This document shows positions 14,777 through 25,714 of a stretch of DNA of 64,000 nt, piece after piece; within the stretch, counting starts at the first letter, position 1; each line of letters begins with the position of its first letter. The DNA is from an uncultured Flavobacteriaceae bacterium. GTDB lineage: Bacteria > Bacteroidota > Bacteroidia > Flavobacteriales > Flavobacteriaceae. Under the pieces are notes generated by a model. That model was not told the origin of the DNA. It made no database searches and saw only the letters and a list, made by a program, of their open reading frames with translations. The DNA lies in assembly GCA_947502495.1 (NCBI GenBank), contig CANNAC010000004.1, forward strand, positions 124,001 through 188,000. The letters are read 5' to 3'. Position numbers and translations under genes: made by a program.

Positions 14777-15472
14777 ATGAATGCTGAAGATTTCCTCTTA
14801 TTCTTAAAAAGCATCGACACAAAACCACTTCGTGTATTAGATGCTGCTATTCCAAATTCAGCGTATATTCCTATCGATTTATCGGAAAGCAATTCCGATT
14901 TAAATACATTTAATTTTTCTTCATCACAAGCTTGGCAAGAGTTTCTACAGAACTATTTAAAAAAGCACAATAAAAAAGTAGCTTTTGGTGGTTATGCCGA
15001 AACACGAAATATTTACAAACGGAGCACGTATTTTAATCCGGAAAGTAAAGAGGAAGAACGTAACATACATTTGGGAGTCGATTTATGGATGGACGCAGGA
15101 GCTAAAATATATACACCTTTAGATGCGACTGTCCATAGTTTTAAAAATAACACCAATTTTGGCGATTACGGACCAACTATAATTTTAAAGCATAGTATTG
15201 ATGATAAAGAATTCTTCACACTTTATGGTCATTTAAGTTTAAAGTCAATTAATGATTTGCAAGAGGGGAAAACTTTTAAAGCAGGAGACTGTATTGCAAC
15301 ATTAGGTGATGCTTCCGTTAATGGTGATTATGCGCCACATTTACATTTTCAAATTATAAGAGACTTAGGAACTTATTTTGGAGATTATCCTGGAGTTTGT
15401 AGCAAAAAAAATCTGGACAAGTTTATAAAAGACTGCCCAGATCCTAACACATTACTAAAACTAAATTATTGA
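14777..15472 (+). CDS. M23-family metallopeptidase (LytM-like)
   Basis: 231 residues. The zinc site is His98-x3-Asp102 (HLGVDLW) and His188-x-His190 (PHLHFQ), with GH152 in LYGHLS; these are the full set of M23 ligands. The N-terminal ~90 residues are not assigned. No signal peptide is apparent, which is odd for an enzyme whose family cuts peptidoglycan crosslinks; either the true start is missed, export is unconventional, or it acts on a cytoplasmic substrate. It converges on the cohesin gene with a 7-bp overlap of 3' ends. Confidence 0.85.
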   Translation: MNAEDFLLFLKSIDTKPLRVLDAAIPNSAYIPIDLSESNSDLNTFNFSSSQAWQEFLQNYLKKHNKKVAFGGYAETRNIYKRSTYFNPESKEEERNIHLGVDLWMDAGAKIYTPLDATVHSFKNNTNFGDYGPTIILKHSIDDKEFFTLYGHLSLKSINDLQEGKTFKAGDCIATLGDASVNGDYAPHLHFQIIRDLGTYFGDYPGVCSKKNLDKFIKDCPDPNTLLKLNY

Positions 15473-16239
15473 TTAATTAATACTTTAAAAGTAGAAACTT
15501 CATTTTCTACAGATCTAATGGTTACAAAGTATAACGCTCCTTTTAGATGTCGCACAGGAATAGCTATTTGATTACCTATAGTATTACTGTTTTCTATTTG
15601 TTGGATACGTTTCCCTTCGATACTGTGAATGGTAATGTTTTCAATTTCTGAAGCAGTATTTGTTTTTATATAAAGCACATCACTTACAGGATTTGGAAAT
15701 ACCGAAAAGCTATTGCTAAAACTGTTTTCTTCGGAAGCAAGTGTTGCTAATATGATATCATTAGTAGATCCGGTAATATTTTCTCCAGCATCATTAGAAA
15801 CTCCGGTACCATTTGCATTGGCTGTAGAAAATAAGTCATGAGCAATTATAACATTTTCACCAGTACCTATAACTTCAAACTCTATTGTAAATACATTTGT
15901 TGTTCCTGTTATATCTACAAAAGCTCCAGCTGCATATCTAATAACTCCAGGAACAGAGGTGTCATTCGCTAATGGCACATTTAGTACTGAATTATCAGGT
16001 GTTAAACTATTTATTTGAATTACAGAAGGATTAAAATTTAAATAAATCTGTAAGCCTCGATACGCAGTTGTTCCCGCTATTGCATCAAAAGTATAAGTAA
16101 ATGTTTGACCAACAGTTAAAGGAGGACTAACATTAACATTAGCAACAAGGTCTACATCTTGAGCGGAAAGATTAATGCAGCTAGCAATAAAAGCTATTAT
16201 AAATACTGTCTTTAATCTAAATTGTTTCGTTTTTTTCAT
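15466..16239 (-). CDS. cohesin-like domain protein with T9SS type A sorting domain
   Basis: The frame is open to 16308, but the signal peptide begins at ATG 16239 (MKKTKQFRLKT...CINLSAQ), and this start avoids overlap with the upstream gene, whose stop is at 16250. The protein is 257 residues. Residues ~25-165 form a cohesin-like domain (LTVGQTFTYTFDA, RGLQIYLNFNPSVIQINSL, FTIEFEVIG). The last ~80 residues are a Por secretion/T9SS type A domain (SVFPNPVSDVLYI ... FKVLINQ), which exports the protein and usually fixes it to the cell surface. The upstream neighbour carries a dockerin-like domain, so the pair may bind each other. Confidence 0.82.
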   Translation of the reverse strand: MKKTKQFRLKTVFIIAFIASCINLSAQDVDLVANVNVSPPLTVGQTFTYTFDAIAGTTAYRGLQIYLNFNPSVIQINSLTPDNSVLNVPLANDTSVPGVIRYAAGAFVDITGTTNVFTIEFEVIGTGENVIIAHDLFSTANANGTGVSNDAGENITGSTNDIILATLASEENSFSNSFSVFPNPVSDVLYIKTNTASEIENITIHSIEGKRIQQIENSNTIGNQIAIPVRHLKGALYFVTIRSVENEVSTFKVLINQ

Positions 16240-16249
16240 GATATTTTTT

Positions 16250-19200
16250 TTAGTCGTTTTGTGTGTCTCCATTTTGTCCGAAGTTTCCTGAGAATAAGCC
16301 AAAGTCAAAAATGTTTATATTGTCATTGTTATCAAAATCTGCACGATTATCATATCCAGATTGGGTTCCGTTTAAGCCAAATGTTCCCGAGAAAATTCCG
16401 AAGTCAAAAATATTAACCACGTTATTATTATCTAAGTCACCAGCAAAAAGTGTAGCAACAGTTTCTGTTTGGTTTTCAGTTAGATTTACTGTGATCATAC
16501 GTTGCAAATACATAGCATGCTTCACTAGTATTTTATAATCTCCTGGAAGAATGCCTGTGCTAAGAGTTATATTTCCTGATGCATCCGCAGTTTCGTTTAA
16601 GTCGTACGCAGGAGTTACTAAATCATTTATATCATAAATAAGTACCGTGTAATTACCAGAGTAATCGGTTCTGCCTTGTAAAGAAACATTTAAGTTTAGA
16701 CTATGAGTTGCCGTAACCGTTATTGTTTGTACACAAGTTAAAGAGTCATTTCCTGCAGTATCTGTTGCTGTCCATGTTATGGTTGTATCTCCTAAAGGAA
16801 ATGGATCGGTTAAAGCTAACGCGTCATTTCTTATCCCGTTATATGTAATCGTTCCTGTACAATTATCGGTTGCTGTTGGTTCTGTAATCGTTATAATTGT
16901 TTGCGTGACTCCTTCTGCAACAAGTTCTTCTAGATTTGTAGGGCAGGTCATTTCAGGTAATTCGTCATCTGAAATCGTTATAGTTTGATCACAAGTAATC
17001 GAATCATTACTAGCAGCATCTGTTGCGGTCCATGTAATAATCGTATCACCAACCGGATAAGGATCTGTTACTAATAAAGCATCGTTTCGTACGCCAGTAT
17101 AAGTAATCGCTCCTGTGCAGTTATCTATAGCTGTTGGTTCTATAATAGTAACTATGGCATCGCAAGTAGCAGTATCTGCAGTTTGTGTAATGTCTAACGG
17201 ACAAGTAATAACGGGTAATTCGTCATCTGAAATCGTTATAGTTTGATCACAAGTAATCGAATCATTACTAGCAGCATCTGTTGCGGTCCATGTAATAATT
17301 GTATCACCAACCGGATATGGATCTGTTACTAATAAAGCGTCGTTTCGTACGCCAGTATAAGTAATCGTTCCTGTGCAGTTATCTATAGCTGTTGGTTCTA
17401 TAATAGTAACTATGGCATCGCAAGAAGCAGTATCTGCAGTTTGTGTAATATTTAACGGACAAGTAATAACGGGTAATTCGTCATCTGAAATCGTTATGGT
17501 TTGATCACAAGTAATCGAATCATTACTAGCAGCATCTGTTGCGGTCCATGTAATAATAGTGTCACCAACCGGATAAGGATCTGTTACTAATAAAGCATCG
17601 TTTCGTACGCCAATATAAGTAATCGTTCCTGTGCAGTTATCTGTAGCCGCTGGTTCTATAATAGTAACTATAGCATCACACGTAGCGGTATCCGCAGTTT
17701 GTGTAATATTTAACGGACAAGTAATTATTGGTACTTCAGAGTCTTCAAGTACGGTCCAAATAAATGTTTCAATCGCATCGGTACTACCAAGTTTAGAAAC
17801 TGTAACGGTTACTTGATGCACACCATCGCTATTTAAACCGCCAGTTACGGCGCTAGAATCTATGGTTCCAAAAATAAGTCCATTGGTTGGTTCTATATTT
17901 AATCCGCTAGGTTGTCCACTTATACTATAAGTGAAATTGGAAGACGGATTTCCGCCCATTGCTATAGCTGAAAAATCTGATATTTCAAGCTCACAATTTT
18001 GGATGTCGGCAATTGCGTCTATAGTGATTTCCGGATAAGTAACAGCCAATACTTCAATAGCATTTACCATTGGGTTTTCTAAATTTCTAAAAAACTCAAT
18101 TTCTAGAATACCATCAAAAACTTGTACATTACTTTGAATCATACCTGCTGTTCTATGTCCATAGGTTTTAGAAGCATCAAAATTTTCTAAAATTCTTTTG
18201 TTTTCAATATCGACACTAAATAAACGTTCGAGAGGTTCTGAAGTACCGTTATATAAGTTGGCAACGTAGAAGTTAAGGATATAATCCCCATTAGGAACAG
18301 GAATTGAAAATATCATTTGATTAGACGACGCACTAATACTGCGCTGTGAATTCATCACCGTTTCATAGGTTGTTTGATCAATATATGACGGAATAGAAGC
18401 ATCTTTAAAAGAATAGTCTAAACTAGTAATAGTATATCTAGATCCAGAGGAAACAGAGAAAGACGTTCCAATAAATTGACCATTAATATCATTAGCTTCC
18501 CAGTTAGGACCGTCATCGGATGCAGCCACTAAAGGCCCACCAGCATTAATTCTAACTATAGGTTCGTAAAGGTCCGTAATTTCTCCAGTAAGATTAGTGG
18601 AAATGGGAGAATTATTACCAGAATGTACAATGTCAAGATTGGCATTTTTTATACCTAAAACACTATTTGAAATAAAATTAATAGGAATATTTACACTAGA
18701 TCCAGGAGTTATAACTAAAGGAAGATTGATATCACTAGAAAACATAGGAGCATCAGTTCCTGAAAAGTTTAGCGAAGTAATGGTAATAATATCATCTGTT
18801 GGGCCACCTTCATTACTTACTTTTAGCAGTTTTGTTCTTAATGAGTTTTGAACTGGAGTTAACCCGAAATTAATAGGGTCAGGCTCTAAAGTTAAGATGC
18901 CGTTTTGATTTTCATAAACTTCAATAAAATCCCAAGTAGCAGTAAACGGATTAGAAAAGGAACCCGAAGCATCCTTTGAAGTCGAAATAAAGCTAACAGC
19001 TAGTCCTTTATTATCTGATGCATCTAAAAAATTTAGAGGTAAGCTTATTGGGCTACCAAGTATAATTAAGGTTTGTCCATCATCTATAGAGTAAAATGGT
19101 TGTGCGGTATTTGCCGTGGGATTAATACTAAAATATAAACTAACCGAACCGGCGTTTAATATGTTAGAAACATCATATGTATTATTTACCGTGACCACTC

Positions 19201-21595
19201 CATTATCTTCCATCAAAACTTGTAGTCCATGTTCGGAATCTGCGTTGCTAGTACCATTCATTAAAACTAACTTTAAATAATTATCTTGGTCACCATTTCC
19301 AAAGCTAATACCATAAGATTGGTGATCGACAGGTTGTGTTTGGGAGCCACTAATACCAAAGAAAGGCGATTCGATCTTTGAATGTATAGTGAAAGGGTTA
19401 GAGTTCGAATCGACATTTAAACCAAATTGAAACCCGTTTTTTTGATTGTTATTAATAGCATCACCACCAGTCACTAAATCTACAGTGGCTTTACCTGCTG
19501 CACCACCAAAAGATAAATTCACTTCATTAAACTGCGTAAGGTAGTCTGTATTACCTGTTGGGTCTAGCATTAACCCCGTAAATCCTAAGCCAAAGAGACC
19601 AGTTCCAGGATCATTATTCCAAAATGGATAATCTATTGGTAGGTTAGTCGTTAGGCCATTATTAGTGTCTAAAGCAAAAACATCATTAACATCTAATATG
19701 GTATCGTTATCATCATCAGGATCATTTAAGTCCGAAATAAAATCACCATCATTATCATCTGGTTTACTTCCTTGCGAACAAATATTGGTGCCATTATCCA
19801 TTTCATCTTGATTCGTAAAACCATCACCATCATTATCTGCATTAGGATCATAACCAGGTTCTTCGGGTTGAATACAATCTATCCCAGACGGTTCAAAGAT
19901 GGTTATATTATTGGCGCCATACGTTGCAGCCCAAACAGTTCCAGGGAATACTTCAGCATCCCCTTGTGCAATAACATCTAAAGGAATAGACCCAAATCCG
20001 CTAAACGTAACTTCGTGTTCTAAGGCTTCATCCCCAGCTGGATTTAAAACATATCTATTAATATCCCCATTAAAGGAAGCGGTTAATAAATTACCTTGCA
20101 TAATACCACCAAAATCGGAGGCTGTATATTCTACAATTCCATTCGTAGAAGATGGTCTGGCATCTAAAATATTGACTTTAGTACTTGTTGTTGGTTCATC
20201 TGCTAAAAACTCACCTAGACGTGGGTCATCTGGGAAATCTCCAATAGCAAAGGATGAATTGAAATAGCCAGAAGTACCAGTCAGAAGTGTTTGTAAATCA
20301 TTAGTGCTAGTGGCAACCCATGATCCGCTAATTTTCTTATAAGCAATAATTTGTGCTCTAGATGGAAATGCAAGGATTGGTATTGGGTGTCCACCATAAT
20401 AGGTTTTGTTTGCATCATTAATAGTACCTACAAAATGTAATGGATCGGAAATAAGGCTGCTTCCAGATTCATTCATTTCATTTTTTATATAATGATCCAA
20501 TGGATCATAAGTAATCGTACTTTCATCACCTAAAAAGGTGTTTGTCGTATTGTCATAAATTTTTGGAACACCTCCCCAAAGTGAGTTTCCACCATTATCT
20601 GAGGTGTATATTCTTCCATTCTCCATGATAACTACATCATAGGCATTTCTAAAACCTGGAGCAAATATTTGAACTGGTCCACCAGCCTCAGGAAATGCTT
20701 GATTTAGACTGTTATTTCCACCAAAAGGATCATTAATATCAATAGTTGCATTATACATTGGGTGTCCAACAGGGTAGGGGAATTCTGGATGTGTATTATC
20801 AATATCTAATCGCAGCGGATCATTTAAAGTTGGTAAATCATATTTGTAATCGGTAGTTGTTCTAGGGTCGGTATACGTAGGCATACCTTCTAATTGTGTC
20901 AGATTAACAATGAGCATGGATGCCGATAAGAAGTATTCGGGAGTACCTGCAAAATTATTACTTGGAGCTCCTTTATTCGTGTTTCCTCCTTGAGCAATTA
21001 GCATATATGTGTCTCCTCCACGTTCAAATATATCCATACCATTAATAGCATGATTTTCTTCACAACGAGGAAGCCCTCTAATTAAATCGACTTTACTCCA
21101 TTGGGTTCCAGTCCATTCTAATTTTGACAATATGCTGGAGTTTGTATCTAAATTAGAATCACTACCAGCTCCTCCACCTCCAAATAAAAAATCGGATGAG
21201 GTTACATATAAAACAGGATTTGTAGTGGTACCTGCCGTTTTAATTCCTGTAATTAAACGTTGTTGGGTAGCATTCGCAATTCCAGTATCATCATGATTGA
21301 CTATACCGGTTTGTATGGTGGTTATCGCTTCTGTATTTGTTATGGTGTACGTGCCATTCCCTAAAGTAGCTGCATCCCTAGAAATAGCATAGGCCCAGAT
21401 TTTTCCATCTTGTTGTGAAACATATAATCTGTTATCTGGTCCAAATTCTAATGAAGTCGGATTTAAAGTAGTTTCTCCTACTAAACCAGAAGAACCAAAA
21501 CTGATCGTTTGGGCAAATGCATGGAATGGTGAAAATAGAGCAGAAATTAAGAGGAATAGCACAAAATTTCGCTTTAATGTAAGGTAAAGCTTCAT
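16250..21595 (-). CDS. giant multidomain surface protein: beta-propeller, TSP3, malectin, HYR repeats, dockerin
   Basis: 1781 residues with a signal peptide ending at AFAQ (~29). In order: a sugar-dehydrogenase-like beta-propeller (~30-560, LEFGPDNRLYVSQQDGKIWAY); thrombospondin type 3 calcium repeats (~580-645, ADNDGDGFTNQDE); a lectin/LamG-like region (~650-890); a HYDIN-like domain (~900-1000); a malectin-like domain (~1010-1190, VRINAGG); a putative Ig domain (~1190-1275); four HYR domains of 86 residues (~1285-1630); a carboxypeptidase-regulatory-like domain; and a C-terminal dockerin-like pair (~1715-1781, GDLDNNNVVNIFDFG and ADFDNNDNINIFDFG). It has no T9SS domain of its own. The cohesin gene starts 10 bp downstream. 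It is probably secreted, calcium-dependent and carbohydrate-binding or -oxidising; the exact activity is unknown. Confidence 0.85.
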   Translation of the reverse strand: MKLYLTLKRNFVLFLLISALFSPFHAFAQTISFGSSGLVGETTLNPTSLEFGPDNRLYVSQQDGKIWAYAISRDAATLGNGTYTITNTEAITTIQTGIVNHDDTGIANATQQRLITGIKTAGTTTNPVLYVTSSDFLFGGGGAGSDSNLDTNSSILSKLEWTGTQWSKVDLIRGLPRCEENHAINGMDIFERGGDTYMLIAQGGNTNKGAPSNNFAGTPEYFLSASMLIVNLTQLEGMPTYTDPRTTTDYKYDLPTLNDPLRLDIDNTHPEFPYPVGHPMYNATIDINDPFGGNNSLNQAFPEAGGPVQIFAPGFRNAYDVVIMENGRIYTSDNGGNSLWGGVPKIYDNTTNTFLGDESTITYDPLDHYIKNEMNESGSSLISDPLHFVGTINDANKTYYGGHPIPILAFPSRAQIIAYKKISGSWVATSTNDLQTLLTGTSGYFNSSFAIGDFPDDPRLGEFLADEPTTSTKVNILDARPSSTNGIVEYTASDFGGIMQGNLLTASFNGDINRYVLNPAGDEALEHEVTFSGFGSIPLDVIAQGDAEVFPGTVWAATYGANNITIFEPSGIDCIQPEEPGYDPNADNDGDGFTNQDEMDNGTNICSQGSKPDDNDGDFISDLNDPDDDNDTILDVNDVFALDTNNGLTTNLPIDYPFWNNDPGTGLFGLGFTGLMLDPTGNTDYLTQFNEVNLSFGGAAGKATVDLVTGGDAINNNQKNGFQFGLNVDSNSNPFTIHSKIESPFFGISGSQTQPVDHQSYGISFGNGDQDNYLKLVLMNGTSNADSEHGLQVLMEDNGVVTVNNTYDVSNILNAGSVSLYFSINPTANTAQPFYSIDDGQTLIILGSPISLPLNFLDASDNKGLAVSFISTSKDASGSFSNPFTATWDFIEVYENQNGILTLEPDPINFGLTPVQNSLRTKLLKVSNEGGPTDDIITITSLNFSGTDAPMFSSDINLPLVITPGSSVNIPINFISNSVLGIKNANLDIVHSGNNSPISTNLTGEITDLYEPIVRINAGGPLVAASDDGPNWEANDINGQFIGTSFSVSSGSRYTITSLDYSFKDASIPSYIDQTTYETVMNSQRSISASSNQMIFSIPVPNGDYILNFYVANLYNGTSEPLERLFSVDIENKRILENFDASKTYGHRTAGMIQSNVQVFDGILEIEFFRNLENPMVNAIEVLAVTYPEITIDAIADIQNCELEISDFSAIAMGGNPSSNFTYSISGQPSGLNIEPTNGLIFGTIDSSAVTGGLNSDGVHQVTVTVSKLGSTDAIETFIWTVLEDSEVPIITCPLNITQTADTATCDAIVTIIEPAATDNCTGTITYIGVRNDALLVTDPYPVGDTIITWTATDAASNDSITCDQTITISDDELPVITCPLNITQTADTASCDAIVTIIEPTAIDNCTGTITYTGVRNDALLVTDPYPVGDTIITWTATDAASNDSITCDQTITISDDELPVITCPLDITQTADTATCDAIVTIIEPTAIDNCTGAITYTGVRNDALLVTDPYPVGDTIITWTATDAASNDSITCDQTITISDDELPEMTCPTNLEELVAEGVTQTIITITEPTATDNCTGTITYNGIRNDALALTDPFPLGDTTITWTATDTAGNDSLTCVQTITVTATHSLNLNVSLQGRTDYSGNYTVLIYDINDLVTPAYDLNETADASGNITLSTGILPGDYKILVKHAMYLQRMITVNLTENQTETVATLFAGDLDNNNVVNIFDFGIFSGTFGLNGTQSGYDNRADFDNNDNINIFDFGLFSGNFGQNGDTQND
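16700..17740 (-). repeat. tandem 258-bp repeats encoding HYR domains
   Basis: The DNA repeats with an exact 258-bp (86-codon) period; for example GGTAATTCGTCATCTG starts at 16956, 17214 and again at about 17472. The first three encoded copies are almost identical even at silent positions, and the fourth (about 16700-16950) is diverged. This implies recent duplication or gene conversion. Confidence 0.85.
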
Positions 21596-22363: not shown

Positions 22364-25300
22364 TTACTCTACTAAAACCCATTCGCCTTTAGCAATTAAA
22401 GGTTCTGCTTGTTTGTATTTTAGGGTTTTATTTTCTCCACTCATCACGTGCTTAATAGTCACCTTGTCGTTACGACCAACTTTTGGTTTGTCACGAACAA
22501 CAGTTTCTACAACTTCTGGTTGACGTTGTGTATTACTAGCAGCTCTATTTTGAGCAGAACGTTCATCTAAATTAGGGATCTCGTCTTTTTGTGTTTGTAA
22601 ATTATCTTTTTTACGGACTTCTTTTGCTTCTTGAATATTAGATTCTTGTGTTGGTAATTCTCCTTTAAATAAGAAAGAAATTACATCTTTATTTACTTGA
22701 TCTATGGTTGTTTTAAACAACTCAAAAGCTTCAAATTTATAAATTAATAAAGGATCTTTTTGCTCATGTACTGCCAATTGAACCGATTGCTTTAACTCAT
22801 CCATTTTACGTAAATGTGTTTTCCACGCATCATCAATAATAGCTAGTGTAATATTCTTTTCGAAATCGGTAATAAGTTGTTTTCCTTTCGTTTCATACGC
22901 TTTTTCAAGGTCTGTAACTACTTGTAAAGATTTTACGCCATCTGTAAATGGTACTACTATTCTTTTAAATTTATCACGTTGCGTTTCGTATACATTAGCG
23001 ATAATAGGGAATGCAATTTCTGCATTACGAGCCATTTTTACCTTGTAATGTTCAAAAGCAGCTTTGTATACACGTTGTGCAATTTCTAGTACCGGAAGTT
23101 TTACAAATTCAGCTTCCGTAATAGGGGAACTCATAGAGAAATAACGAATTAATTCAAACTCGAAATTCTTAAAATCGGAAGCTCCTTTATTTGTTTCTGT
23201 AATGTTTTCCGCAGTATCATAAACCATATTGGCGATATCTACACGAAGACGTTCTCCAAATAAAGCATGATATCTTCGTTTGTAAACCACTTCACGTTGC
23301 GAGTTCATTACATCATCATATTCTAGTAAACGCTTACGTACACCAAAATTATTTTCTTCTACTTTTTTCTGTGCTCTTTCAATAGATTTAGAAATCATAG
23401 AATGCTGAATCACTTCACCTTCTTCTAATCCCATTCTATCCATCATTTTAGCAATACGTTCACTACCAAAAAGACGCATTAAATTATCTTCTAACGAAAC
23501 ATAGAACTGTGAACTACCAACATCTCCTTGACGACCAGCACGACCACGTAATTGTCTATCTACACGACGAGAATCATGACGCTCTGTACCAACAATGGCT
23601 AAACCACCAGCAGCTTTTACTTCGTCACTTAATTTAATATCGGTACCACGACCAGCCATATTGGTTGCAATAGTTACTTGTCCGCTTCTACCAGCTTCAT
23701 CTACTATTTCTGCTTCCTTTTTATGCTGTTTTGCATTTAAGACATTGTGCGGTACTTTACGAATAGAAAGCATTTTTCCTAAAAGTTCCGAAATTTCTAC
23801 GTTGGTAGTACCAATTAAAACGGGTCTTCCTGCTTCCGATAGTTTCGTTACTTCATCAATAACCGAATTGTATTTTTCACGTTTTGTTTTAAATACTAAA
23901 TCTTGTCTGTCATCACGAGCAATAGGTTTGTTTGTCGGAATTTCTACAACATCTAATTTGTATATTTCCCAAAACTCACCAGCTTCTGTAACCGCAGTTC
24001 CTGTCATACCAGAAAGCTTTCGGTACATTCTAAAGTAATTTTGAAGCGTTACCGTTGCAAAAGTTTGTGTAGCATCTTCAATTTTTACATTTTCTTTTGC
24101 TTCGATCGCTTGGTGTAAACCATCGCTATAACGACGACCATCCATAATACGACCGGTTTGCTCGTCTACAATCATTACTTTGTTATCCATTACCACATAT
24201 TGATTGTCTTTTTCAAAAAGAGCATATGCTTTTAGTAATTGATTAAGTGTGTGTATACGTTCGGATTTGATTCCGAAATCACGGAATAAATCTTCTTTTT
24301 CTTCTGCTTCTTGTTCTTTCGATAATCCTTTTGCTTCAATTTTTGCAATTTCGATACCAATTTCTGGCATAACGAAAAAGTCTGGATTATCTTTTCCAGA
24401 GATATATTCGATACCTTTATCTGAAAGTTCTATTTGATTGTTTTTTTCTTCAATTACGTAGTACAGTTCTTCATCGATCTTTGGCATTTCACGATTGTTG
24501 TCTGCCATGTAATGGTTTTCCGTTTTTTGAAGTAGTTGTTTCACACCTTCTTCACTTAAAAACTTAATTAAAGCTTTGTTTTTTGGAATACCTCTATATA
24601 CACGAAGTAGTTGAAAACCACCTTCTTTCTCATCACCAGCGGCGATAAGTTTTTTTGCTTCGGCTAAAACGCTAGTTAAGTATTTGCGTTGTACCGAAAC
24701 AATGTCTTCTACTTTAGGTTTTAAAGCATCAAACTCATGTTGGTCTCCTTTTGGTATAGGACCAGAAATAATTAATGGTGTTCTTGCATCATCTACTAAA
24801 ACCGAATCGACCTCATCTACAATAGCGTAGTGATGCGGACGTTGTACTAAATCGTCAGGATTATGCGCCATATTATCACGTAGGTAATCAAAACCAAACT
24901 CGTTGTTGGTACCATAAGTAATATCTGCATTATAAGCTTTTTTACGAGCAGCAGAATTAGGTTTGTAGTAATCTACACAATCCACGCTCATACCATGAAA
25001 CTCAAAAATTGGAGCCATCCATGCGCTATCTCTTTTTGCTAGATAATCATTTACGGTTACTAAGTGAACACCACGACCAGCTAATGCATTAAGATATACC
25101 GGAAGCGTTGCTACTAGTGTTTTACCTTCTCCCGTATGCATCTCGGCAATTTTACCTTGGTGCATAGCAATACCACCAATTAATTGTACATCATAATGAA
25201 TCATGTCCCAAGTAATTGCTTTTCCTGCAGCATCCCAAGAGTTCGCCCAAGTTGCTTGGTCTCCTTCTAAGGTTACATAATCATGTTCTCCAGAGATTAC

Positions 25301-25714
25301 TCTATCAAATTCATTTGCCGTAACGGTAATAGAAGTATTGTTTGTAAAACGTCTTGCTGTTTCTTTAACAACACCAAAAGCTTCTGGTAAGATATCGTTT
25401 AATACATCTTCTGTTACTTTATAAATTTCGTCTTTTATCGCATCGATTTCAGAATAGATATCTTCACGTTTATCGATGTCTTCTTCCTTTTCAGCATCTA
25501 TTAAAAGGGCGTCTATTTTGGTTTGAAGTGGCTGGCGTGCTTCTGCTATTTTTTCTTTAAAAAAGACTGTTTTTGCTCGTAGTTCATCGTGAGATAATGC
25601 TTCTAAAGCAGCTTCAAAGGTTTTAATTTTATTAACTAAAGGTGTTATGGATTTTACGTCTTGTTTCGACTTGTCTCCAACAAATACTTTTAGTACAGAA
25701 TCTAAAAAACTCAT
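22364..25714 (-). CDS. secA: preprotein translocase ATPase SecA
   Basis: 1116 residues, the long Bacteroidota form. It shows the N-terminal DEAD motor with Walker A MHTGEGKTLVATLP (~190), DEVDSVLVDDARTPLIISG, the preprotein cross-linking region with insertions, NBF2 with TNMAGRGTDIKL, ERHDSRRVDRQLRGRAGRQGD, and the helical scaffold (AIIDDAWKTHLRKMDEL). The C-terminus ends KYKQAEPLIAKGEWVLVE, with no Cys-rich zinc motif. It powers Sec-dependent export, which the many signal-peptide proteins here, including the T9SS client, need first. Monocistronic. Confidence 0.98.
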   Translation of the reverse strand: MSFLDSVLKVFVGDKSKQDVKSITPLVNKIKTFEAALEALSHDELRAKTVFFKEKIAEARQPLQTKIDALLIDAEKEEDIDKREDIYSEIDAIKDEIYKVTEDVLNDILPEAFGVVKETARRFTNNTSITVTANEFDRVISGEHDYVTLEGDQATWANSWDAAGKAITWDMIHYDVQLIGGIAMHQGKIAEMHTGEGKTLVATLPVYLNALAGRGVHLVTVNDYLAKRDSAWMAPIFEFHGMSVDCVDYYKPNSAARKKAYNADITYGTNNEFGFDYLRDNMAHNPDDLVQRPHHYAIVDEVDSVLVDDARTPLIISGPIPKGDQHEFDALKPKVEDIVSVQRKYLTSVLAEAKKLIAAGDEKEGGFQLLRVYRGIPKNKALIKFLSEEGVKQLLQKTENHYMADNNREMPKIDEELYYVIEEKNNQIELSDKGIEYISGKDNPDFFVMPEIGIEIAKIEAKGLSKEQEAEEKEDLFRDFGIKSERIHTLNQLLKAYALFEKDNQYVVMDNKVMIVDEQTGRIMDGRRYSDGLHQAIEAKENVKIEDATQTFATVTLQNYFRMYRKLSGMTGTAVTEAGEFWEIYKLDVVEIPTNKPIARDDRQDLVFKTKREKYNSVIDEVTKLSEAGRPVLIGTTNVEISELLGKMLSIRKVPHNVLNAKQHKKEAEIVDEAGRSGQVTIATNMAGRGTDIKLSDEVKAAGGLAIVGTERHDSRRVDRQLRGRAGRQGDVGSSQFYVSLEDNLMRLFGSERIAKMMDRMGLEEGEVIQHSMISKSIERAQKKVEENNFGVRKRLLEYDDVMNSQREVVYKRRYHALFGERLRVDIANMVYDTAENITETNKGASDFKNFEFELIRYFSMSSPITEAEFVKLPVLEIAQRVYKAAFEHYKVKMARNAEIAFPIIANVYETQRDKFKRIVVPFTDGVKSLQVVTDLEKAYETKGKQLITDFEKNITLAIIDDAWKTHLRKMDELKQSVQLAVHEQKDPLLIYKFEAFELFKTTIDQVNKDVISFLFKGELPTQESNIQEAKEVRKKDNLQTQKDEIPNLDERSAQNRAASNTQRQPEVVETVVRDKPKVGRNDKVTIKHVMSGENKTLKYKQAEPLIAKGEWVLVE

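Follow-up and report, generated by a model that had tools for sequence, protein, structure and literature searches.

Gene layout and modules of the pair

The window analyzed here, a 64,000-nt stretch from a marine flavobacterium (contig CANNAC010000004.1 of assembly GCA_947502495.1, forward strand 124,001–188,000; all positions below are window positions), carries two adjoining genes for a giant secreted protein that ends in an X-module and a dockerin, and for a small protein that combines a cohesin with a type A sorting tail of the type IX secretion system (T9SS). We put the probability at roughly 0.72 that they form a two-gene surface-display unit, in which the X-dockerin giant would be the one dedicated cargo and the cohesin-T9SS protein its separate export-and-anchor tag. 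The features of the pair are as follows (G000 is the window's own genome; other G and L numbers are compared genomes and loci).

16250..21595, minus strand: giant secreted protein, 1781 aa (gene coordinates confirmed)
16253..16702, minus strand: X-module and dockerin, the last 150 residues of the giant (AlphaFold2 [AF2], Foldseek, family profile)
15466..16239, minus strand: small partner, 257 aa (ATG at 16239, stop codon ending at 15466)
15739..16164, minus strand: cohesin domain of the small partner (PF00963; place of the family-profile match, G000:C4:139739-140164)
15481..15702, minus strand: T9SS type A tail of the small partner (PF18962, TIGR04183)

The small gene lies downstream, starting 10 nt from the stop codon of the giant. 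From its N terminus, the giant consists of a signal peptide and a propeller-like region (both by eye), a malectin domain, four HYR stretches (these and the malectin domain by Pfam), the X-module, and the dockerin, and its N-terminal region is common to proteins of 31 out of 299 family genomes. No glycoside-hydrolase family scored above cut-off on it in Pfam or NCBIfam, and the sole enzyme models listed, NF049877 (over the malectin part) and TIGR02604, were far below theirs. Neither database gave a T9SS model on the giant at E up to 1, and the chain ends in the dockerin. In the small partner, a single cohesin is accompanied by a signal peptide (by eye) and by a T9SS type A sorting domain (Por_Secre_tail, 43.8 bits, cut-off 27; TIGR04183, 33.6 bits, cut-off 23). 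The genome encodes SprA (TIGR04189, 2765.6 bits), and its 4.07 Mb hold 97 T9SS-tail matches at E up to 0.001. A first-pass annotation, made from the letters of the window, had described a 1781-residue protein with two C-terminal dockerin-like calcium loops and no T9SS domain, followed 10 bp downstream by a cohesin-T9SS type A gene. Coordinates, fold, and ligand pattern confirm the first description, and the scores of PF00963 (24.7 bits against a cut-off of 24.1) and Por_Secre_tail bear out the second.

The AF2 model of the X-dockerin block (pLDDT 97.0, pTM 0.89; alignment of 23 rows) shows a beta-sandwich, after which come two long helices with loops. A Foldseek search with this model returned only cellulosomal X-dockerin entries among its ten best PDB matches (4wi0, 3kcp, 5g5d, 2b59, 5k39, 4u3s, 5m0y, and three chains of 4fl4). 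The titles of six of the ten name a type II cohesin-dockerin complex, and we take the remaining four to be scaffoldin structures bearing the same X-dockerin. The best match was 4wi0_B (E 3.8e-10, TMq 0.78), and 2b59_B was close to it (E 2.8e-9, TMq 0.74), at 19–21% identity to the clostridial X-dockerin structures. The dockerin family profile also matched dockerins in the PDB (best E 2.8e-7). In the window, positions 1, 3, 5, 9, and 12 of both loops are D or N, and over the 23 rows D or N (or S) occupied these positions in 23, 23, 23, 19, and 23 cases for loop 1 and in 23, 22, 23, 20, and 23 cases for loop 2. Hence, the fold and the calcium-ligand pattern, both of which had been proposed as checks on the earlier reading, came out in its favor.

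Pfam was less sensitive than the family profiles. Dockerin_1 was not listed on the whole giant at E up to 1, and a PF00404 search of the window's genome gave no match. Nonetheless, the Pfam dockerin model picked up nine of nine family members at E up to 1, the best of them at 1.4e-6, and a Neolewinella relative reached its cut-off with 37.4 bits. On the cohesin side, PF00963 gave 26.5 bits with the window's domain alone, matched 10 of 11 cohesin domains of the family at E up to 1, and across 99 genomes found matches in one, the window's own. Pfam alone would have missed most of what is described below, because PF00404 had no match in the window's genome and PF00963 was found in 1 of 99 genomes. 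The cohesin family profile matched cohesins in the PDB (best E 5.5e-5), where phmmer with the small protein found none. The cohesin fold was modeled in a Neolewinella fusion protein (L060), with pLDDT of 83–95 over residues 191–290 and 64–86 over residues 291–320, and the best 25 Foldseek matches of this model were all cohesin or cohesin-dockerin entries.

Conservation of the gene pair and its exceptions

In the window's genome, the family profile (E up to 0.01) finds a single cohesin; there is likewise a single X-dockerin, and the two adjoin. Used as a query, the window cohesin had matches in 12 of 397 family genomes, and in eight of these the match reached 1e-26 or better. Among the four weaker matches, G333 was kept, and L011–L013 were dropped as stretches of 53–83 residues running over stop codons opposite a long open reading frame (ORF). 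The X-dockerin profile gave matches in 12 of 13 chosen genomes, including three of the window's genus (G002, G004, and G006) that the cohesin query had missed and in which a cohesin gene adjoins the X-dockerin gene. Neither module was found in G003 (84% complete), and no X-dockerin was found in any of the eight chosen genomes that have propeller relatives not seen with an X-dockerin (G152 included). A second X-dockerin match in G005 (18.4 bits, E 0.004) was dropped as weak, the matching stretch itself looking, by eye, like the N terminus of a receptor-like protein. A plasmid collection yielded no relative.

An X-dockerin scan of one genome per species (84,980 species) gave 42 loci. The 14 top loci, from Lacinutrix, Oceanihabitans, Formosa, Xanthomarina, Hanstruepera, Mangrovimonas, and other genera, hold 15 X-dockerin genes, each followed by a cohesin-T9SS gene. 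In the close clade as a whole (17 loci, window included), the cohesin-T9SS gene is next downstream in 18 of 18 X-dockerin genes. Fourteen of these loci (15/18 genes) were found by the dockerin alone, and the other three (window, G001, and G299) had come to light through the initial finding or the cohesin search and so were not blind to the cohesin. The T9SS model was built from seven tails including those of the window and G333, so these two are not independent hits; the window's tail is supported by Pfam and NCBIfam and that of G333 by eye. Adjacency by chance was rejected because the pair occurs in 18/18 X-dockerin genes of the clade. The neighboring position of the window genome's single cohesin and single X-dockerin, among so many T9SS-tail matches, also argues against chance. 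The survey of neighboring gene pairs in other Bacteroidota proposed by the first-pass annotation thus found the pair conserved.

Outside the 14 top loci, a cohesin match of some strength was found in eight of the other 28 (L060, L061, L063, L069, L073, L075, L080, and L084) and, once longer flanks were examined, in two from Robiginitalea (L153 and L154). The gene order is reversed in five genomes (G333, G235, G275, and two Robiginitalea), where the X-dockerin giant is preceded by a protein of 2,673–3,209 aa that is cohesin-like in an N-terminal stretch and has a T9SS tail (that of G333 by eye). X-dockerin genes also lie beside cohesin-matching genes outside Bacteroidota, in a Pleurocapsa metagenome-assembled genome (MAG) (L061) and an Anaerolineaceae MAG (L063).

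With the weak second match of G005 set aside, cohesins and X-dockerins stand one to one in 10 of the 12 genomes that have both; G143 has two of each, and G299 has three cohesin domains to one X-dockerin. In Neolewinella persica, two proteins are single chains with an X-dockerin and then a cohesin: the first (L157) has a T9SS tail by hidden Markov model (HMM) and Pfam and a Pfam dockerin above cut-off, and the second (L060 ORF1) has a cohesin that is weak by HMM (0.016) and clear by fold, with a T9SS tail by eye. N. persica also has X-dockerin giants and two adjoining proteins, one of 2757 aa with an X-dockerin and four matches to cohesin and one of 603 aa with a T9SS tail and two such matches; the whole set (L060/L152/L157) looks like a T9SS-anchored scaffold. 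The Neolewinella arrangement and the presence of two X-dockerin proteins in G275 would suit a small cellulosome-like scaffold, with the cohesin protein as a general anchor for several dockerin cargos. We regard this as unlikely for the window, given that its genome has one cohesin and one X-dockerin and that the one-to-one ratio prevails in the compared genomes. A multi-enzyme cellulosome in the window's genome was rejected on the same counts and on the HYR and malectin content of the giant: several cohesins serving several dockerin enzymes, the mark of a cellulosome, were not found there. The pair is of the cohesin-dockerin kind and is not a cellulosome, and the earlier suggestion that the joint is used for one cargo fits this genome.

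Next to the pair, on the plus strand, an M23-like peptidase gene (by eye; 14777–15472) converges on the cohesin gene and overlaps its end by 7 nt (15466–15472). In several relatives the slot is flanked by secA (22364–25714 in the window, by eye) and an M23-like peptidase gene.

Covariation and alternation of dockerin and sorting tail

The two dockerin repeats agree with each other at loop positions 10, 11, 13, and 14 in 0.91, 0.87, 0.87, and 0.83 of the 23 rows, against 0.37, 0.37, 0.46, and 0.46 with shuffled partners (P = 5e-5 each, the smallest value the shuffling test can give). Agreement was weaker at positions 9, 16, 17, 18, 20, and 21, and positions 3 to 8 showed no excess at 0.05 (P = 0.076 to 1). 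The lack of covariation at positions 3 to 8 led us to reject gene conversion between the repeats. In dual-mode dockerins, the contact positions are 10, 11, and those near 17–22, and the agreement of both halves at helix positions recalls the dual-binding-mode dockerins of 2vn5 and 2vn6 (by their titles).

Cohesin and dockerin distances were also correlated with each other, given propeller and T9SS tail, in partial Mantel tests (r = 0.69, P = 0.0002, n = 17; r = 0.71, P = 0.0002, n = 15). One pair (G143b) was left out of these tests, its propeller being cut by a contig end. Under the same approach, T9SS tail and dockerin were not positively correlated given propeller and cohesin (r = −0.11), nor was cohesin with X-module (r = 0.05). 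Cohesin and dockerin therefore look, from their sequences, to have co-evolved. The modules could instead be present but not bind one another, with the X-dockerin a stabilizing C-terminal cap and the cohesin binding something else; outside cellulosomes, modules that resemble cohesin or dockerin frequently lack a known partner. The covariation of the two, the symmetry of the repeats at helix positions, the Neolewinella fusions, and the joint absence and replacement in G152 described below all speak against such a reading, and we consider it very unlikely.

The C termini of the giant's relatives point to an exchange between dockerin and sorting tail. In a propeller tree of 60 rows, 22 end in an X-dockerin and 19 in a T9SS tail by HMM; the remainder are four T9SS-like by eye, one with a masked end, one with a different module, which we call DocB, and 13 that are truncated at a contig or locus end. 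At least five changes of the X-dockerin label are needed on this tree, and four of them are forced by well-supported branches. A Mangrovimonas paralogue with a fused T9SS tail lies in the same Mangrovimonas cluster as two dockerin-cohesin pairs. The DocB row is G152, which is nested inside the X-dockerin clade and occupies the same gene slot. In this genome neither cohesin nor X-dockerin was found at E up to 0.01; the giant ends in DocB, with two GDIN-like loops, and its neighbor is a different T9SS-tailed protein, CohB. G152 is a case of joint replacement of both partners.

DocB and CohB have no detected similarity to the X-dockerin/cohesin pair. For four CohB-type neighbors (that of G152 included), Pfam at 0.1 listed only the T9SS tail plus a weak match inside that tail. 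Three DocB proteins (the giant of G152 left out) were scanned as well, and their DocB part gave nothing convincing in Pfam. DocB had 38 matches in 16 of 149 relatives, 30 of them in the same family. Of these 30, 22 were fetched, and in 22/22 a T9SS-tailed gene is directly next (21 of about 250–300 aa and one of 772 aa). The DocB neighbor matched the CohB of G152 (phmmer, 0.01) in 8 of 20 loci and did not match this single query in the others. In the order-level genomes G062, G065, and G097, none of the examined DocB neighbors had a T9SS hit, and two of their tails were similar by eye. The DocB-type pair occurs twice in the window's own genome (G000:C5, L148:4143-5968; G000:C1, L149:1346-9696), each time as a tail-less protein that ends in an EF-hand-like module (DocB, by eye) and is directly followed by a small T9SS-tailed protein with no Pfam name beyond its tail.

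Proposed export and anchoring, and relation to known systems

The first-pass annotation had proposed a cellulosome-style joint in which a small T9SS-anchored protein holds the giant, and our sequence-based results support that proposal. The most likely role of the cohesin-T9SS protein is to anchor the tail-less giant, and perhaps also to export it. The X-dockerin of the giant would bind the cohesin of its small neighbor; if so, the small protein would therefore serve as an export-and-anchor tag separate from its one cargo. Its T9SS tail would take it through the SprA translocon and fix it to the cell surface. We infer that the binding depends on calcium and that the giant is located at the surface. 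The earlier proposal does not address how the giant, lacking a tail, gets across the outer membrane, and the partner's tail may export the giant too, because the giant would otherwise have no recognized route out. In the version that we prefer, at about even odds against capture from outside, the giant would cross the outer membrane already bound to its partner. A partner that exports as well as anchors would fit both the joint replacement in G152 and the way in which tail and dockerin alternate. Somewhat under even odds, and tentatively, cohesin-dockerin binding may act as a secretion signal in trans and be one case of a general flavobacterial "split substrate" design that includes DocB/CohB; given such a design with a second pair, the export tag and its cargo would be separable and exchangeable.

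Alternatively, the giant may leave by another route and then be held by the cohesin protein that the T9SS has placed at the surface, with the partner serving only as an anchor. Clostridial cellulosomes use cohesin anchors in this way, and two orphans would fit assembly in trans: a two-cohesin T9SS protein in G299 and an X-dockerin protein in G275. However, no second export signal was recognized on the giant, its relatives bear a T9SS tail themselves, and in pairs and fusions alike the tail belongs with one cargo. We judge capture from outside to be quite possible but somewhat short of an even chance; as a variant sharing the same joint, its odds overlap with those of the overall explanation.

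Several observations weigh against a surface-display pair. The HMM check suggested by the first-pass annotation was split: the cohesin stood above its Pfam cut-off, but barely, and the window dockerin did not reach the cut-off, with 16.6 bits for Dockerin_1 on the last 150 residues of the giant (cut-off, 22.9). The predicted cohesin fold is that of a Neolewinella homologue. The model of the L060 ORF1 fusion is good for the cohesin and T9SS tail and of low confidence for the dockerin half, and so is uninformative on docking; the rows of its alignment were selected to keep cohesins off the dockerin, where MAFFT had placed cohesin rows, and this left only two other dockerin rows. At 18 of the 42 X-dockerin loci, all outside the clade, no cohesin was found in the fetched flanks with the flavobacterial profile at E up to 0.1, a profile that may be too narrow for these loci. 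The cohesins of G235 and G275 matched at 0.002 and 0.006 in the fetched stretch, with nothing at 0.01 genome-wide. The G275 orphan, a second X-dockerin protein of 930 aa (L168:6040-8829) that is, by eye, sugar-dehydrogenase-like with CxxCH cytochrome motifs, has no cohesin in the 13 kb around it, and the two-cohesin protein of G299 (L022:6076-7287) has no adjoining dockerin gene; together these point to a joint that can act in trans as well. The Mantel tests remove shared ancestry incompletely. In a reduced set (n = 13) the cohesin-dockerin correlation falls to 0.55 (P = 0.0008) and that of cohesin with X-module is 0.22 (P = 0.13), and cohesin and propeller remain correlated given dockerin and T9SS tail (0.26, P = 0.011, n = 17; 0.32, P = 0.004, n = 15). 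Moreover, no report of T9SS export of non-covalently bound cargo was found in the open-licence literature, as judged by titles and abstract starts among the matches listed.

The type II cohesin-dockerin joint of clostridia connects a large protein to an anchor, which is a Gram-positive cell-wall module. The window's pair resembles the clostridial type II cohesin-X-dockerin complexes (4wi0, 2b59) in that X-module and dockerin form one fold and the calcium loops are paired, and differs from them in that the anchor is a T9SS tail and there is one cargo. The small partner is like a T9SS type A substrate in its signal peptide (by eye) and Por_Secre_tail, but its tail sits on a protein separate from the large cargo. 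A parallel is found in Cloacimonadota, where, according to excerpts of the report (PMC8542988), cohesin scaffoldins carry a C-terminal domain for surface attachment; the paper refers to a T9SS review for this domain. As here, the cohesin protein is attached by a C-terminal domain and the dockerins are on separate signal-peptide proteins. In contrast to the single cohesin and single neighboring cargo found here, the excerpts describe one 3,755-aa scaffoldin with repeated cohesins and carbohydrate-binding modules that serves several enzymes, and they report no dedicated gene pair, co-evolution, or replacement for it (PMC8542988). A 2018 paper, in the part of its text considered here, detected neither cohesins nor dockerins in its genome and described their absence as consistent with other Bacteroidetes (PMC5831590). 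No description of this dedicated pair was recognized in the open-licence full-text literature, again from titles and abstract starts among the matches listed.

These results now place a probable cohesin-dockerin joint in flavobacteria, in a simple one-to-one form that is suited to experiment. If it is true that the giant travels bound to its partner, the T9SS exports non-covalent complexes, and display would be open to any protein that bears the right dockerin. The second type of pair, found twice in the same genome, suggests a wider rule, which would give a function to many small proteins now unannotated beyond a "T9SS type A sorting domain" and to their neighbors.

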